Shown: positions 18,626 through 28,052 of the stretch, one piece after another
How the letters are laid out: every line of letters begins with the position of its first letter
Position numbering within the stretch: the stretch's first letter is position 1
Source: a virus
Virus record (IMG/VR): IMGVR_UViG_3300037963_005433
Location: 1-59,835 of that record
DNA: 59,835 nucleotides
Direction: 5' to 3' (one strand)
Notes under the pieces: generated by a model
The model's database searches: none
The model's input: only the letters and a program-made list of their open reading frames with translations
Told to the model about the DNA's origin: nothing
Position numbers and translations under genes: made by a program

Positions 18626-20221
18626 ATGGCTAAAAGAAGCGGAAGTTCTTTCGGTTCTTTCAATAAAACACAAGACTTCAGTACAAATAGAGTACTGCCT
18701 ATCCGGACTGAGTTTTCTCAAGGCTCTGTTCCGGACTCTATTTATAGCGCCAACAGAGAATCTGCTTGGTCTAGATGGCGTAGAGGTTTTGAAATCTATG
18801 CCAATAGCCTGTATGACGAAGCGTATTCATATACCTTTAACTACCTTATTCCACTACCACCAGGAACAGTTTTACCTCCAGGTGTGAACCCGCCGCAAGT
18901 CCCCGGTATTTGCCAAGGATTTCCAACGAAAAACAAAGAACTTGGCATGCATTGGGCAGGTGTGCGTGTTGGTGGAAGCCTTAGGTTTGACAACTTACGA
19001 GGTGGTGGTGGCGTCACTGCTTCCATTAAAGCCGTGACGGAAGATGAAGATTTCTGGTATGTAGAACTGAACGGTGGTTGGGATGAAGATACACCATTGC
19101 CACCTCCTTTGTTTATTCCTCCTGTCGTTGTAGGAGGCAGAGAGATTGTTCCAAAACAATACCCAATCAACGGCGAAATCTTAGAAGATCGTGTTGTTGA
19201 GGTTGGTGGTGCTCCTATAACAGCAGCAACTATTGACCCCGCCACACAAAAACGATACGGCTATATTCAGGCAGTTTTAGTCGAAACAGACGAAGTAAAG
19301 GGAATTTTAAAGCTCCAAAAGCTTGGTTCTGTTGAAGCTACTCCGGACGGTGTGTTCCAAACACCAGCACGTGAAGACCCTCATGTTGGAAGATTTTTAA
19401 TTACAGGGACAAGATACTGTTGCTCTTGCCAAGATTTTTCAAGACGTGATTACTATTTCATGTCTCAGCTTGGTGCAACAAACAAAAAAGCTTTCCCTCG
19501 AACTAATGTTGCGACGCTGCGCCCTGGCCGGTTTGAAATCATGACCGGTACAGAAGGTAATGCAAACGCGGTTAACAATAATGCAATGACTAGCGCACAG
19601 CTGGATCGACAGATGGAAATTCGCGCACCATCTGCACAATACAATATCCCTCCACAAGTTACACCGAACAGCTCAACTGTCCGTGGAACTACCCGTGACA
19701 ACCCGGGGGTATTCCGGTCGTTTGGTGGACGTTACCTTCGCAATAACCCGTTGCCTTCATTGGAGGGAGCTGTTGCAGAAGGACCTCCTCTATACAGGGA
19801 TTATAAAACTGTCAAAAACGAAGACGGAAGTTTTACGATCACGGAGCTAACTGACTTCTGGACACCTTTGCTGGATGAGATGCGTTATTGCAAACACATC
19901 TATGCAATGAAGTTTGCTGAAAAAGTTTTTCCACCAGAACCTTCAGATCTTCCTGTCGCCATGGGAAGTATTGTTGAATGGGAACGTGATCTTGTTGAAA
20001 AAACAAACCGAGAGAACCAAACGGCTGCGTACGAATTGTCAGTTCGCGGTTTATCCAAAATGGATGTACCTCCATACAATTGCCAGGCACCAATGATGAT
20101 GCCAATGTTCCAAAAATTATTCAACGTTCCATCTACGTTTATTTTGATGGAGGGTTTTAGAATGTATGACAAGAATGGTAAAGAATACAATCCATCTGAA
20201 AACGAAGGACCGGCGACTTAA
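18626..20221 (+). CDS. Large putative tail/virion protein with CCxC motif
   Basis: A 531-residue protein from ATG 18626. The N-terminus is basic and aromatic (ESAWSRWRRGFEIYANS). A beta-rich middle carries Pro-rich loops. Around residue 265-275 there is a cysteine cluster (YCCSCQDFSRRDYYF) which could bind metal or make disulfides. C-terminal helices include KMDVPPYNCQAPMMM. No known family is recognised. Size and position suggest a main tail component such as a nozzle or hub. Confidence 0.65.
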   Translation: MAKRSGSSFGSFNKTQDFSTNRVLPIRTEFSQGSVPDSIYSANRESAWSRWRRGFEIYANSLYDEAYSYTFNYLIPLPPGTVLPPGVNPPQVPGICQGFPTKNKELGMHWAGVRVGGSLRFDNLRGGGGVTASIKAVTEDEDFWYVELNGGWDEDTPLPPPLFIPPVVVGGREIVPKQYPINGEILEDRVVEVGGAPITAATIDPATQKRYGYIQAVLVETDEVKGILKLQKLGSVEATPDGVFQTPAREDPHVGRFLITGTRYCCSCQDFSRRDYYFMSQLGATNKKAFPRTNVATLRPGRFEIMTGTEGNANAVNNNAMTSAQLDRQMEIRAPSAQYNIPPQVTPNSSTVRGTTRDNPGVFRSFGGRYLRNNPLPSLEGAVAEGPPLYRDYKTVKNEDGSFTITELTDFWTPLLDEMRYCKHIYAMKFAEKVFPPEPSDLPVAMGSIVEWERDLVEKTNRENQTAAYELSVRGLSKMDVPPYNCQAPMMMPMFQKLFNVPSTFILMEGFRMYDKNGKEYNPSENEGPAT

Positions 20222-22021: not shown

Positions 22022-22393
22022 ATGTTCAATTGTGAACAGGATCCCCTTTCCCTGCTCATTGAAATCACTCCAAAGTTAGCGAAACGACGTTATCGACAAT
22101 CAATATACGAAGCCTGGGACCACTGCTGTGGATACTGTGGCGAAGAAGCAACAAGTTTAGATCACATCGTACCAAGGTTTAAATCCGGCTCAAACAACAG
22201 GAACAATCTGGTTCCGGCCTGTCGTCGCTGTAACCAGAACAAAGCTTCCCACGATATGGAGGAATGGTACCGGAAACAGGCTTATTTCTGTCCTGACCGA
22301 CTAGCCAAAATCGTTACATGGCAAGAACAGGAGGTTATCGACATCTTTGTTTATAATAATGAGATTGAGTCGATAAACCTGGCGGCAGGATAG
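22022..22393 (+). CDS. HNH endonuclease
   Basis: A 123-residue protein from ATG 22022. C36-G-Y-C39, TSLDHIVPRFKSG (D47-H48), NNLVPACRRCNQNK (C67, C70, N71, K74) give a complete zinc-ribbon HNH core. It could be a homing endonuclease or a packaging-associated HNH. It lies between the recombinase/Xis pair and the large internal protein, which points to a mobile insertion. Its stop overlaps the next GTG. The gap 21888-22021 before it holds a small inverted repeat (TCTAC-TC-GTAGA, 21986-21997) and no gene. Confidence 0.85.
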   Translation: MFNCEQDPLSLLIEITPKLAKRRYRQSIYEAWDHCCGYCGEEATSLDHIVPRFKSGSNNRNNLVPACRRCNQNKASHDMEEWYRKQAYFCPDRLAKIVTWQEQEVIDIFVYNNEIESINLAAG

Positions 22394-24987
22394 TGGGTCT
22401 TTATTACGATAGCTCCAAAGGATGGAAGCTTAAAAACGAAAAAACCAACTACAAAACCGACTATCGGACTAATTATCCTACGGACCTAACAAAAAAAGAA
22501 AAATATAAAGTAGAAAAGTGTAGTGGATGGTGGATTTTCAAGCGTTGCTGGAAAGAAACAAGAACCAGAACGGTTCCCGATACGAAGAAAAACCGGGAAA
22601 ACACAATAAAAAACAGTACAAACAAAAAAAATAATAAAGAGAATAAAGCGTTAAATAAAAAAAATACTGCACTTAACGATGCCTATAAAACTACTTTGTC
22701 AGCTGCCAATAGCACGAAAGGTGGTGACTATGTAAAAAAACGGGCGCTAATTCGTAAGGTTGGAGGGGTCGATAAAAAAGTCCTCAACAAACTAGAAGAT
22801 AGCTATAAAGATTTTTACCGAAAAGAAAAGCTAAAAACTTGGGATGTCAGTAAAGGAGCAAAACCTCCTTATGGAACTTTTGATCCAAAATATTATGGGA
22901 AAACAAACCCCACTGTTGCAGAAGCTTGGAAAGCCGCAGTTGCAGACGATGACATTGATATCACCGAACGGTATGGAAGCAGTGGTGGGTACTATTTAGG
23001 CCATTACACAAATCAAGGCAAAGCTGCGGGCAATCGTGGCAATGCTGCAGAAGAACTTACCGCTGCCAATATTTATTCCGAAAAGCCGACTGATAAAGAT
23101 TTTGAAGACATCCGTACACTTCAGCTTGGTGTAGACACTGGTTCGCAAACTGATCGTCTGTTGCGCGTGCCCGAAGTTGCCGCTCAATGGGAAAAAGCAA
23201 AACGAGATGATCCTTATTGGGAAAAGCTAGCGAAAGAAAACTTTTTAGATGTTACTAAAAAGGATGATTTTGTTGCGTTATTCCGCTTGTCCCAACGCCA
23301 AGAAGATAAAGACGTTAAGTTTAAATATGCGATGGAGGCCGGTCAACCTACTGGCATTACTGACTTAGAAGACGCGATATCCACTGCCGTCGGCTCTAAA
23401 GCCATAGTTGATGTTAAAAAGTTTGGTGCGTTAACTCAAGATGTTTTAAAACAGACAATTGCGGAAATGAATAAAGCACGCCAGCAAGAACAAATGCTGG
23501 ATCTCTATAAAGGTTTTAGTGGCTTTAGTGAAATTACCGGTATCAATCAAACACTAACTGAAAGTATCTTGGGGGATACAGGCGTTGGCGGTATCCTGTC
23601 TTTCACTGGCGGCGGCAAGGCAGAGGAATCCTTGGAGAAAAGTCTGCAAAACATTACTGGTGTAAAGAACGAAGCTACATATAACTGGCAACAGTGGTTT
23701 GATAACACCTTAAAAGAACGTTATCAAGATGACCTAGAACTTGGATATACAGTAGATAATGCAGAAGAAAAAATTAAAATTGAAGGTGATTTTGCACGTC
23801 AATTTATTGATGATTATTTGAATCCTCGTTTTAATACTTCCCGTTCTATGGACGAGTTTGTTGAGTATCTCGACGTTCGTCAAGAAGAACAGAATCCTTT
23901 CCAAACACAAGATATTGTCAACGCTACTTCTCAGGTTGCAGATATTCGTGCCCGTAAATATCTTGATGACCTCCGTGGAGAAAGCGCACGTGGCTTTGAT
24001 CCAACGTTCTATTTTAATCCCACAGGGGATGCTGGTAGAGCTACACGATATGCAGAACAGTCAAAAATTGTTAATGAGGATTGGGAAAAGTTCCAGAAAA
24101 AAGATCCATATTGGACACAGCAAGCTTATCGCTTTGGTGTTGGACCTAATGATAAAGAAGGATTTGCCAGAATGCATTTCCAACTGGTAGGACAGAACTT
24201 TAAAGATAAGGACGGAGATCCAGCTCCATTCGATCCCGCAGAAGATATTGTGAACGCTTCGAAGGTCAAGGATGAAATCTATAAAAATATTCTTCCTGCT
24301 TTGGAAAAAGAAGCTCTTGAACAAGGATCAGTCTTTGGGCAATTTGTCACTCCAGAAGAATTTGCTGACGAAGTTATAAAAGGATTAGACCCAGAAAATC
24401 AGGAGGAGTATGAAAAGGTACTGAAGCAATACGGACTTGACGACTTCGCTGGAAGTATTGAGGAACTAAAAGATTACATTGTCGAAACTTTACGCACCGG
24501 TTCTGCTCAACAGATCCGTGAAAATATTAAATATCTAAACGAAAAACGACAGGACCCAACACAAGCAAAACTTGGCATTACTTACATTGATCGTCCCGAA
24601 GATTTCAAAAATGAACAAGCTAAGCCTGACACTGAATTATATAAAGTTTTTCAGAAGGCAGGCTACCAGGGCACAGAAGATGACTTCTATACCAAGTTTT
24701 TCCCTGATTTAGAACGTTCAGAGCAAAAACTGTTAACCGTAGGAGGCCGTGATGAAGCCTTGAAAACCACTAACCTTGACTTCAGTGACCCGTTTGCATC
24801 CCTTGGCACAATTCAAAGTTTCTTTGATGCAGACGAAGCGGATCAACAAGACTCCGATAGGGATACAACTAAAAAAGATAAAAGTTACTTCAACTTAAAC
24901 TTAGATGATGACGATGATGAGGATTACAAGTCCAAGCGTGGACAAGAGATCCTCGGAGAATTTACCTCGATGTTTAAAGGTTTCTGA
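22393..24987 (+). CDS. Large internal virion protein candidate (864 aa)
   Basis: GTG 22393 overlaps the HNH stop. The N-terminal 130 residues are extremely basic (Lys/Asn/Thr) with one Cys-Trp-rich patch (CSGWWIFKRCW). The rest is a long, mainly helical, charged protein in which a module recurs: YYFNPTGD/KYYGKTNP, WEKAKRDDPYW/WEKFQKKDPYW, and a VAD/IVN segment, suggesting an internal duplication of about 320 residues (about 165-300 and 530-640). The C-terminus is acidic (DDDDDED). Such large helical proteins are common ejection proteins of short-tailed phages. No enzymatic motif is seen. Confidence 0.7.
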   Translation: MGLYYDSSKGWKLKNEKTNYKTDYRTNYPTDLTKKEKYKVEKCSGWWIFKRCWKETRTRTVPDTKKNRENTIKNSTNKKNNKENKALNKKNTALNDAYKTTLSAANSTKGGDYVKKRALIRKVGGVDKKVLNKLEDSYKDFYRKEKLKTWDVSKGAKPPYGTFDPKYYGKTNPTVAEAWKAAVADDDIDITERYGSSGGYYLGHYTNQGKAAGNRGNAAEELTAANIYSEKPTDKDFEDIRTLQLGVDTGSQTDRLLRVPEVAAQWEKAKRDDPYWEKLAKENFLDVTKKDDFVALFRLSQRQEDKDVKFKYAMEAGQPTGITDLEDAISTAVGSKAIVDVKKFGALTQDVLKQTIAEMNKARQQEQMLDLYKGFSGFSEITGINQTLTESILGDTGVGGILSFTGGGKAEESLEKSLQNITGVKNEATYNWQQWFDNTLKERYQDDLELGYTVDNAEEKIKIEGDFARQFIDDYLNPRFNTSRSMDEFVEYLDVRQEEQNPFQTQDIVNATSQVADIRARKYLDDLRGESARGFDPTFYFNPTGDAGRATRYAEQSKIVNEDWEKFQKKDPYWTQQAYRFGVGPNDKEGFARMHFQLVGQNFKDKDGDPAPFDPAEDIVNASKVKDEIYKNILPALEKEALEQGSVFGQFVTPEEFADEVIKGLDPENQEEYEKVLKQYGLDDFAGSIEELKDYIVETLRTGSAQQIRENIKYLNEKRQDPTQAKLGITYIDRPEDFKNEQAKPDTELYKVFQKAGYQGTEDDFYTKFFPDLERSEQKLLTVGGRDEALKTTNLDFSDPFASLGTIQSFFDADEADQQDSDRDTTKKDKSYFNLNLDDDDDEDYKSKRGQEILGEFTSMFKGF

Positions 24988-25286
24988 TGGCTGATAAACG
25001 CAAAAAAGCAGCAAAAGCAGCCAAGCTTGCCAAGGACAAGATGGCTTGCAATAAACCTAAAAAGACTCCGGGACATCCAACGAAGTCACACGTCGTAAAA
25101 GCTTGTAAAGACGGAGAAGAAAAAATCGTCCGCTTTGGTCAGCAGGGTGTAAAAGGCGCTGGCAAGAATCCGAAGACAGCCAAAGAGAAAGCACGTAGGA
25201 AGTCATATTATGCTCGACATAATGCACAGGATAGTAAACCTGACAAGTTTTCTGCCCGTTATTGGAGTCACAAAGTCAAATGGTAA
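24987..25286 (+). CDS. Small basic conserved phage protein
   Basis: A 99-residue, very Lys-rich protein; ATG 24987 overlaps the preceding TGA. The part KSHVVKACKDGEEKIVRFGQ followed by KARRKSYYARH and FSARYWSHKVKW is a pattern I recall in many marine phages, with no assigned function. Two cysteines (about 21 and 41) flank the conserved centre. High charge and a late position suggest nucleic-acid contact in the virion. Confidence 0.8.
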   Translation: MADKRKKAAKAAKLAKDKMACNKPKKTPGHPTKSHVVKACKDGEEKIVRFGQQGVKGAGKNPKTAKEKARRKSYYARHNAQDSKPDKFSARYWSHKVKW

Positions 25287-25459
25287 GCGTTGAGATGGAA
25301 ATGTCCATCGAAGATTGTCAGGTTTTATACCAGGCAGTCTGTGATGCTCTTCAACACTGGCCGGGTTCTCCTGCCAGGCCTAAAGAACAACAGGAAAAAT
25401 TTAGGCAAATGAAGTTCTTCCTGTTTAGCATTATGTGCGAAGCTTCTTTGGATTCATGA
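25280..25459 (+). CDS. Small hypothetical protein (59 aa)
   Basis: ATG 25280 lies seven bases inside the end of the preceding gene and is preferred to TTG 25262. The acidic helical product (VEMEMSIEDCQVLYQAV and FFLFSIMCEASLDS) has two cysteines and no known family. It overlaps the next start by four bases. Confidence 0.6.
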   Translation: MVSVEMEMSIEDCQVLYQAVCDALQHWPGSPARPKEQQEKFRQMKFFLFSIMCEASLDS

Positions 25460-25569
25460 AAAAAGCCGACGGTTACATTCAGGCACGTCCCAAAAAAACA
25501 CGTCAGGGTCAAGGAAAGCATTCAAAACCTACAGGTAACAAGAAAAAGTATCGCGGTCAAGGTAAATAA
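25456..25569 (+). CDS. Tiny basic protein (37 aa) with GQGK repeat
   Basis: ATG 25456 overlaps the previous TGA (ATGA). The product is Lys/Gly-rich with two similar parts, KTRQGQGKHSK and KKYRGQGK. It resembles other tiny basic proteins in phage late operons. Coupled translation and composition support a real gene; function is unknown. Confidence 0.6.
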   Translation: MKKADGYIQARPKKTRQGQGKHSKPTGNKKKYRGQGK

Positions 25570-25582
25570 TTTGTGTATGATT

Positions 25583-25604
25583 GGAGGTAATGCTTATTAC
25601 CTCC
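25583..25604 (+). promoter_or_regulatory. Perfect nine-base hairpin flush with endolysin start codon
   Basis: GGAGGTAAT, loop GCTT, ATTACCTCC; ATG 25605 follows directly. The only GGAGG near the start is inside the 5' arm, so pairing would hide it. This suggests control of lysozyme translation. Confidence 0.65.
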
Positions 25605-26264
25605 ATGGCGGATTATTCGCTAGCTGTAGAACTTATTCGTAAGTATGAAGGGTATAGCGAAAAAGCATACCCTGATCCTTCTACTGGAGAAGAGCCGTAC
25701 ACCCTTGGCTTTGGCACGCAGTTTTATCCGGATGGTTCTCCGGTAAGACAAGGCCAGCGATGTACGTACGAAAAGGCAGTCGAGTATTTATTCAACGAAA
25801 TTACTGTTATTGAAGCGCAATTACGCAAGCTGAATCTGGGTTTAGATCCCTACATGACCCAGGCTTTGGTGTCGTTTATACATTCAGTTGGCTGGGAATC
25901 TTTCCTGTACAGCGAAGTTATTGACAATATTGAACGCGAAGATTTTCATGGAGCAACCCTGGTCATGTCCGACTGGGTCTTCGATGCAGAGCACAAAGTT
26001 ATTGGGGGTTTAATTGATCGACGACGTGAAGAAGCCGAGCTTTTTCTCACTGAAATTGATCCCGAAGAAGATTATGGCACCGATATTTTACTTCGTGCTT
26101 TCCGCTATTACTCAGCTTCCAGGCATCAAGTAGGTGCGATTAGGCAGCTGGAAACCCAGATCAGTCCTTATGTCTTGGCTGAGTTTGCAAACTCATTCCG
26201 TGTCCAAGAAGACCCTTGGGCAGCGCTAACCGACTCGGAGTTGAATGCTATCTTTGACGTGTAG
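25605..26264 (+). CDS. Endolysin, T4-type lysozyme (GH24)
   Basis: A 219-residue protein using ATG 25605 (in-frame TTG 25581 and ATG 25590 are alternatives). Catalytic Glu15 lies in IRKYEGYSEKAYPDPSTGEE, followed by Asp24 and Thr33 in the E-D-T order of T4 lysozyme; GLIDRRREEAELF is the conserved C-terminal signature. It cleaves the glycan of host peptidoglycan at lysis. No signal peptide is seen, so a holin or other release route is needed. A C-terminal extension of about 70 residues has no recognised domain. Confidence 0.9.
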   Translation: MADYSLAVELIRKYEGYSEKAYPDPSTGEEPYTLGFGTQFYPDGSPVRQGQRCTYEKAVEYLFNEITVIEAQLRKLNLGLDPYMTQALVSFIHSVGWESFLYSEVIDNIEREDFHGATLVMSDWVFDAEHKVIGGLIDRRREEAELFLTEIDPEEDYGTDILLRAFRYYSASRHQVGAIRQLETQISPYVLAEFANSFRVQEDPWAALTDSELNAIFDV

Positions 26265-26295
26265 CCTTAGAATAACGGAAGCAAAAGAAATCGAA

Positions 26296-26583
26296 ATGGA
26301 ACGTTCTGTGGAGCCTAGAGAATTTCATTTACCACTTGAACTTCAATTTTCGATGCGGAAAGCAGAAATATGTGCCCAGGAAATGACTTGGGAGCAGCTA
26401 CATGCAGCCCTATTGAACTTGTACCACCAAAGATTAATGGAATGGTATGCAATTAAGTCCCTCATGGAAGATGAAAATATCCAAATTGACTTCGATGTGC
26501 CCACCGAATTGGAATTGGCCGAGTTGGCTGTAAGTCAGATGTTCGACGCTGACGAAGATGAAGACGATGTAACTCCTTTTTGA
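26296..26583 (+). CDS. nblA: NblA-like phycobilisome degradation adaptor
   Basis: A 95-residue protein from ATG 26296 (an in-frame TTG at 26245 lies inside the endolysin gene). Residues 14-58 align without gaps to cyanobacterial NblA (from memory of Anabaena NblA): LE-x-QFS-x-R at 14-21, Met30, LY-x-Q at 42-45. NblA links phycobiliproteins to the Clp protease and starts phycobilisome breakdown. Unlike cellular NblA (about 60 residues), this one has an acidic tail of about 35 residues (ending DADEDEDDVTPF), and the C-terminal Lys of the LLKH segment is Glu58. It lies between endolysin and a late gene, so expression is probably late or shared with lysis. Confidence 0.85.
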   Translation: MERSVEPREFHLPLELQFSMRKAEICAQEMTWEQLHAALLNLYHQRLMEWYAIKSLMEDENIQIDFDVPTELELAELAVSQMFDADEDEDDVTPF

Positions 26584-26597
26584 GCGGATAAACAGAC

Positions 26598-26915
26598 ATG
26601 CTGTCTACTGAGTACCGCAAGCGGCTTGAATTCATTTGTTCACGTATTGCCGAGAAACAAGAGGTTTTGTTAGAAGACATGATCTGGGCCGAAAAATTAG
26701 CCAAGGCGAATCGTTCGGCAGCCGAGATCTTACGTCGTGCCAGGCGTTTGTCCCGAAATCCAGAGATGAAAGCAGATAGCTTGGACGGATTTATGAACGC
26801 TATGGATTTAGGAGATCCTGATCCAACAAATCACCGGACCACATTTAAGGATCCGGATGACATTGTCGAATGGTTTAGCCAAGAGAAAACAGATGACTGG
26901 CGTCAAAGAGACTGA
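26598..26915 (+). CDS. Hypothetical conserved cyanophage-type protein
   Basis: A 105-residue protein from ATG 26598, 14 bases after nblA. The N-terminal 70 residues are helical (EFICSRIAEKQEVLLEDMIW, AAEILRRARR). The acidic C-terminal part has a short DPDDIVEWF segment. I recall similar proteins in cyanophage late regions but no function. It ends the + strand virion block; a hairpin spans its stop and that of the convergent gene. Confidence 0.65.
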   Translation: MLSTEYRKRLEFICSRIAEKQEVLLEDMIWAEKLAKANRSAAEILRRARRLSRNPEMKADSLDGFMNAMDLGDPDPTNHRTTFKDPDDIVEWFSQEKTDDWRQRD

Positions 26916-26926
26916 TGTGATCAGTC
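26910..26926. terminator. Hairpin covering two convergent stop codons
   Basis: GACTGAT-GTG-ATCAGTC: a perfect seven-base stem containing the TGA of the + gene and the TGA of the - gene. No T-run follows on either strand, so it may stabilise RNA 3' ends rather than terminate alone. Confidence 0.45.
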
Positions 26927-27490
26927 ACCAAGTTCAATCAAGCGCTCAAGATACCACTGCGCTTTCTGTAAGCTCTCAATACCCCCTTTCTGCCGTTCTC
27001 GCCAAACGTACTTTGCCGCGCATCCTTTTAGGTACCCTCTATATTCTTCACGTGTTAATTGTGCTTCGATCGCTTCAATGCATTCAATGGATCCGGAAGT
27101 GTAGTGAGCGGGGTGGTTAACCGGATCGGAAGTTAGATCGATATCTTCTTCCCAAATTTCTTTGTGTTTTGCAAGGTAAGTGTCCCAAGGGGTTTCACGC
27201 TTTTCCTTGGCACTACGCTTCTCTTCTTCATTATCTTTTGCCCAGGGCACAGGACAAATACCCCCTGGGCAGTCAGAGATTTCTTCGTTTCCTACCGGCT
27301 CAAACCACGCCTTTTCTTCGACTGGGCCATCATTTCCTCCGACGGTGCTCCCAGATCCATCAGAATCATCTTTGACTTCGGTGAGGCTCCAGCTTCCGCT
27401 CCTTCCTCCATCGACGGAATGTATCCGGTCAATCCCGGACGCTCCATCGGTTCTGTCCCTAGATTCTTTCTTTCCATTCCCTCTTGACAC
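26921..27490 (-). CDS. DUF3310 protein
   Basis: A 189-residue frame from 27490. The C-terminal 70 residues (DPVNHPAHYTSGSIECIEAI, then YLKGCAAKYVWRERQKGG and QKAQWYLERLIEL) are a textbook DUF3310 domain, common in phages and often annotated loosely as nucleotide kinase-like; its biochemical role is not established. The first 65 residues are Gly/Ser/Asp-rich and read from DNA that also encodes the upstream gene, so the real start may be internal (for example a GTG within the CPVPW segment). It closes a minus-strand operon. Confidence 0.75.
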   Translation of the reverse strand: MSRGNGKKESRDRTDGASGIDRIHSVDGGRSGSWSLTEVKDDSDGSGSTVGGNDGPVEEKAWFEPVGNEEISDCPGGICPVPWAKDNEEEKRSAKEKRETPWDTYLAKHKEIWEEDIDLTSDPVNHPAHYTSGSIECIEAIEAQLTREEYRGYLKGCAAKYVWRERQKGGIESLQKAQWYLERLIELGD

Positions 27491-27636
27491 AATGACAATC
27501 CTCTGTTCTGGTTGTCATATAAGGGTACATCATTTTCTTCATTAGCGATTGGCTGACCGAAATCCATTTCGGAAACCATACGACATTTAACTTCGTCTTC
27601 GACGAAAGAATCTAAGAAGCCGACTGCGTCGAGCAT
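27292..27636 (-). CDS. Hypothetical protein overlapping DUF3310 gene
   Basis: A 114-residue protein from ATG 27636. The first 50 residues (FVEDEVKCRMVSEMDFGQPI) look like an ordinary folded start; the rest is Met/Gly/Lys-rich. Its last 199 bases are shared with the DUF3310 reading frame. It starts 41 bases from the divergent + gene at 27678, so a bidirectional promoter must lie between. No family is recognised. Confidence 0.55.
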   Translation of the reverse strand: MLDAVGFLDSFVEDEVKCRMVSEMDFGQPIANEENDVPLYDNQNRGLSLCQEGMERKNLGTEPMERPGLTGYIPSMEEGAEAGASPKSKMILMDLGAPSEEMMAQSKKRRGLSR

Positions 27637-27677
27637 GACTATAACCCGCGTTGATTTATTGCTTTTACAATAATACT

Positions 27678-28052
27678 ATGGCAAGTTTCTTTGATCCCAC
27701 CTACGATCCAAGCCGCGACTCGGCGTCGTCAGGTGTTGAAGTATCTGATCTTAATCCTGAAAAGATTTACGATACGGACTTACGTCGTTTTGAAGAAGAT
27801 AAGCGTTCAAACATTGAGAGCCTGAACAATAAACAAGAACGTATTGGTAAGTTTTTTAGGGCCGCCAAGAGTGCTGGTGCCTACAGACAAAGAGCTGGCA
27901 TTGCAGAGCCCACAATCCGGGGCAAAACCCCCAGAAACCCAGCGATTATCGCTGGTTCAGAGTTGCCCAGCATGGGGGATACTTACGGGCCTGTGGGGAG
28001 CACTAACTACCCCAACAAGCCCCAACCGTACGCAGGTCGTCCTTACGGCTAA
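27678..28052 (+). CDS. Hypothetical Pro/Gly-rich protein
   Basis: A 124-residue protein from ATG 27678 (a TTG at 27651 is unlikely). It begins MASFFDPTYDPSRDSASSGV, has a helical middle and ends in Pro/Tyr/Gly-rich sequence (NKPQPYAGRPYG). It is an isolated + gene inside a minus-strand operon. Its TAA abuts the stop codon of dcd exactly (TAATTA). The composition resembles small virion proteins. Function is unknown. Confidence 0.6.
   Translation: MASFFDPTYDPSRDSASSGVEVSDLNPEKIYDTDLRRFEEDKRSNIESLNNKQERIGKFFRAAKSAGAYRQRAGIAEPTIRGKTPRNPAIIAGSELPSMGDTYGPVGSTNYPNKPQPYAGRPYG

Follow-up and report, generated by a model that had tools for sequence, protein, structure and literature searches.

The window analysed here is a stretch of 59,835 nucleotides that belongs to a 78,172-base virus record (IMG/VR record IMGVR_UViG_3300037963_005433). 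Located directly downstream of an endolysin gene in this window is an ORF that encodes a protein of 95 amino acids, in which an NblA domain is followed by a C-terminal tail. The features of the locus are listed below.

25581-26264, plus strand: endolysin gene (Phage_lysozyme, Pfam E = 1.2e-17), directly upstream of the gene studied
26296-26583, plus strand: CDS of the tailed NblA-family protein, 95 amino acids, stop codon included (ORF reading, Pfam and alignments)
26329-26466, plus strand: NblA domain, residues 12-57 (Pfam and profile matches, AlphaFold2 model)
26473-26505, plus strand: conserved linker ENIQIDFDVPT, residues 60-70 (two alignments)
26506-26541, plus strand: predicted third helix, residues 71-82, extending to 85 in a second model (structure models)
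26545-26580, plus strand: acidic tail DADEDEDDVTPF, residues 84-95, predicted to be disordered (low pLDDT; acidic composition conserved)
26575-26580, plus strand: Pro94-Phe95 terminus, resembling the tip of SSB (PF end in 82 of 116 distinct relatives, with synonymous codons mixed)

Position 26296 is the conserved start of the 95-residue protein, as M1 is invariant in the family alignment, and an in-frame extension up to 26245 is absent from the more distant relatives. A scan for promoters and terminators gave signal no better than that of shuffles, and Rfam had no match across 24900-27700.

The distribution of the protein was assessed in viral and cellular collections. Scanning IMG/VR with the window protein returned 83 relatives, and a scan with the family alignment found at least 559 stretches that encode the tailed form. 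The closest relative from an isolate is AHV82245.1 of S-EIV1 (KJ410740), a relative of the window phage whose host is Synechococcus; it is 62% identical across residues 1-79 and is annotated as hypothetical. AHV82245.1 lies in the same place after a lysozyme gene and carries an acidic tail ending APF, but its tail is longer than that of the window protein and it scored 17.4 bits against Pfam NblA, which is under the cut-off. A survey of photosynthesis genes listed hli and ptoX for the S-EIV1 group but not nblA (PMC5332604). The single match in GTDB was L161 (PAZU01000015.1, 4904-11197), a 15.8-kb contig from a MAG labelled Euryarchaeota archaeon SP67. On it lie the lysozyme gene, the NblA-family gene and the adjacent genes known from S-EIV1-type phages; as these adjacent ORFs resemble genes of the window phage, the contig is probably of phage origin and misbinned. 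The tailed NblA family is apparently confined to phages, those of the S-EIV1 type; GTDB was covered by one scan with family-specific peptides, which leaves room for a tailed NblA in cells.

An earlier note on this DNA had proposed that the ORF encodes an NblA, with an HMM search against the NblA family as the check. The Pfam NblA model (PF04485) matched residues 12-57 without gaps (E = 2.5e-5) at 25.0 bits, a borderline score that lies exactly at the curated cut-off of 25, and a search of the phage's own genome with the same model gave 25.6 bits, above the cut-off. Among 30 diverse relatives of the tailed protein, 28 matched Pfam NblA at E<=1. When the profile of the protein was compared with one of cellular and phage NblAs, residues 8-59 aligned without gaps (probability 87, E = 3.9e-6). 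The profile score obtained with 116 distinct relatives was 31.9, compared to 16.2 for the reversed NblA alignment and 19.9 for the best of 60 column shuffles. These searches and their shuffle controls bore out the proposed relationship: by sequence comparison, the product of 26296-26583 is an NblA homologue, and the homology is real but distant. A sequence search of the PDB returned NblA (1ojh) as its sole match, which is supportive but weak (E = 0.27), and a PHROGs search with the 95-residue protein gave nothing useful (best E = 0.31). A tblastn search of phages with Anabaena NblA was insensitive, as even the NblA of Ma-LMM01 was missed.

All of the motifs named from the sequence beforehand were found (L14-E-x-Q-F-S-x-R21, M30 and L42-Y-x-Q45), and they are shared with cellular NblA (PF04485; Anabaena, PDB 1ojh) within the gapless residues 8-59. 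The N-terminal motif, reported to bind ClpC in NblA (PMC4103541), falls where the alignments of the tailed family show the strongest conservation; L14 and R21 are invariant in the 116 distinct proteins and Q17 is present in 115. The NblAs of Ma-LMM01, PaV-LD and nine viral contigs (L277-L285) are likewise phage-borne and belong to the same family as the tailed protein. They differ in that their frames are of about 53-79 residues, none has an acidic tail, and their Pfam scores, where measured, are above that of the tailed protein.

Leu51 and Lys53 of Anabaena NblA reportedly contact phycobiliproteins or the phycobilisome (Bienert 2006). The tailed family departs from cellular NblA at the position aligned with Lys53, which holds Lys in 1 of 116 distinct proteins, and keeps L, I or M at the Leu51 position. 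It had been claimed that Glu58 replaces a conserved C-terminal Lys. The residue is correct for this protein, but its use as a diagnostic replacement was rejected: position 58 is most commonly Ala (72 of 116; Glu 16, Lys 1), and the Lys is likewise missing from L279 and L283, two ordinary viral NblAs. For these reasons position 58 says little, and the Lys53 position is no firm criterion for NblA.

The placement of the gene next to the endolysin, also remarked on before, proved to be a property of the family, with the endolysin directly upstream in 104 of the 105 loci that had enough sequence. Judged from gene order, this conserved adjacency fits with late expression. The same adjacency, together with the borderline Pfam scores and the unconserved Lys53-aligned residue, would also suit a former NblA whose scaffold now serves some other purpose, late in infection or in lysis, and no longer takes part in antenna breakdown. 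We consider such reuse unlikely. Conservation is high in the half that reportedly binds ClpC, the two ordinary viral NblAs are likewise without Lys, and the sequence has, by eye, no membrane-spanning or lysis-type feature.

AlphaFold2 predicted two helices in the NblA part, at residues 14-28 and 32-59, with a mean pLDDT of about 75. Foldseek searches of PDB and viral libraries, with a second look by VIA-align, gave no meaningful match and did not list 1ojh, a result that is uninformative because the query is a small helical monomer. Beyond the NblA part, the tailed protein has 37 residues that cellular NblA lacks, made up of the linker, the predicted third helix and the acidic tail. The earlier note had described about 35 added acidic residues. 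A tail is indeed present, but only 14 of its 37 residues are Asp or Glu, it starts as a linker and a predicted helix, and the dense acidic run is confined to residues 84-91.

Because the tail is kept in a set of 116 distinct proteins, it is not junk. In the family the linker consensus ENI.IDFD.PT is followed by a predicted helix and then by an acidic run, predicted to be disordered, that varies in length and sequence. The protein ends in PF in 82 of the 116 distinct proteins, and in 113 the last twelve residues include an acidic residue a short way ahead of PF. Synonymous codons are mixed at the terminal Pro and Phe, the pattern that selection to keep these residues would be expected to produce. 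The variable acidic run and the predicted disorder could mean that the tail serves solubility or turnover only, for example as an entry point for the Clp protease, with no specific partner. However, the penultimate residue is Pro in 100 of 116 and the last is Phe in 84 of 116 despite free synonymous change, and we regard a tail of that kind as quite improbable.

The terminal Phe is absent from a well-supported clade of 28 of the 116 proteins (support 99/99), which end in DPFxPA/V or similar. Since the tree of tailed proteins was built on 80 columns and midpoint-rooted, the status of this clade as derived is one that we infer. A small clade (L254, L255, L257 and L258) ends in LTPFFG, two residues beyond the PF tip. 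The SSB of the L255 phage ends in SKEPF.

The C-terminal tip of bacterial and phage SSB (SSB-Ct) consists of an acidic stretch with a Pro-Phe end, and its binding depends on the terminal Phe, the anchored carboxylate and the acidic residues (PMC10164576). An acidic stretch with a terminal Pro-Phe and its free carboxylate is found in the window protein (DADEDEDDVTPF) and in 82 of 116 relatives, and not in the 28-member clade. As in SSB-Ct, the acidic stretch is predicted to be disordered; unlike SSB-Ct, the tip sits on an NblA-type domain rather than a ssDNA-binding domain. The SSB of the window phage, which is encoded outside the window, ends in TDDENAPF, and all 14 SSBs that were read end in PF. 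Only two of the 112 S-EIV1 CDSs checked end in PF, the SSB and the NblA-family protein.

The PF tip suggests, at the level of sequence, a docking peptide like the SSB tip. If the tail acted in this manner, its acidic residues and terminal Phe would dock into SSB-tip pockets on replication or repair proteins of the phage or the host, and the adaptor would be aimed at or tethered to DNA metabolism rather than only to the antenna. The PF ends, their restriction to two S-EIV1 proteins and the residues on which SSB tip binding depends speak for such a role, yet Phe is missing from the end of the 28 proteins in the supported clade, and four more proteins add FG after PF. Moreover, the SSBs of L183, a member of the Phe-less clade, and of L236, a probable member whose tail was not read, still end in DPF, and the residue before the terminal Pro is hydrophobic in SSB but mostly Gln in the tailed NblA family. 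Retention of Phe in the SSBs while the 28-member clade is without it argues against an SSB-type interaction across the family, and identity with the SSB tip was rejected as a family-wide rule. The SSB tip is a resemblance and a testable rival, not the main reading, and we judge it distinctly unlikely to explain the tail. A combined scheme seems more doubtful still. Here a lineage-wide NblA-type adaptor with an SSB-tip-like peptide would connect replication or repair proteins with the Clp protease of the host, by delivering SSB-binding host proteins for degradation or by tethering the adaptor near replicating phage DNA, and one clade would later have lost the terminal Phe. The conserved PF tip, its likeness to the phage SSB tip and the lineage-wide family are additions to what the first reading of this DNA contained.

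The most likely reading is that the protein is an NblA-type Clp adaptor that probably acts late in infection and bears a docking tail specific to the lineage. Stated in full, as a proteolysis adaptor of the NblA family that keeps a conserved docking tail and is turned against the phycobilisome, we give it about an even chance of being correct. It is supported by the NblA homology, the conserved half with the ClpC motif, the kept tail, the Synechococcus host of S-EIV1 and the position after the endolysin, and weakened by the borderline Pfam scores, the single Lys among 116 at the Lys53 position and the lack of a fold match. The helix-loop-helix part would dimerise, and the N-terminal motif LPLELQFSMR would recruit the host ClpC chaperone, as reported for cellular NblA. 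The adaptor would then promote degradation of phycobilisome proteins, probably at a late stage of infection. The rest of the protein, from the linker through the third helix to the acidic tail and its hydrophobic end, may serve as a docking peptide and so bring in an additional partner or change an existing one; the earlier note had proposed that the tail could alter the protease partner, the phycobiliprotein target or stability. Also in favour of the adaptor reading, NblAs from phages of other lineages reportedly caused phycobilin loss in cyanobacteria that expressed them (PMC9602691).

A widespread group of cyanophages carries an unannotated relative of NblA, which in the host sets off the dismantling of the light-harvesting antenna. 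The viral protein has an additional acidic tail, conserved in evolution, whose end usually resembles that of the group's own SSB. At the scale of the ocean, viral NblA reportedly lowers the light captured for photosynthesis (Nadel et al. 2025, as cited in PMC12892361). If the tailed form acts on the antenna, such estimates may overlook a widespread cyanophage lineage. The tail also makes it possible to ask cleanly to which targets an NblA adaptor can be directed.

Several other ORFs of the window were noted. Upstream, ORFs at 18626-20221 (plus strand, 531 amino acids) and 22393-24987 (plus strand, 864 amino acids) matched nothing in Pfam or PHROGs at the thresholds applied. The next gene after the NblA-family gene, at 26598-26915 (plus strand), matches phrog_507, a group of unknown function (E = 1.7e-47), and no gene of this type is annotated at the corresponding place in S-EIV1. 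Further downstream, ORFs at 26921-27490 and 27292-27636 (both minus strand) overlap in different frames; the former carries a DUF3310 domain in its last third and the latter has a clear relative in L161. Because the domain occupies only the last third and the overlapping ORF has this relative, the DUF3310 gene probably has its actual start within the 26921-27490 ORF.
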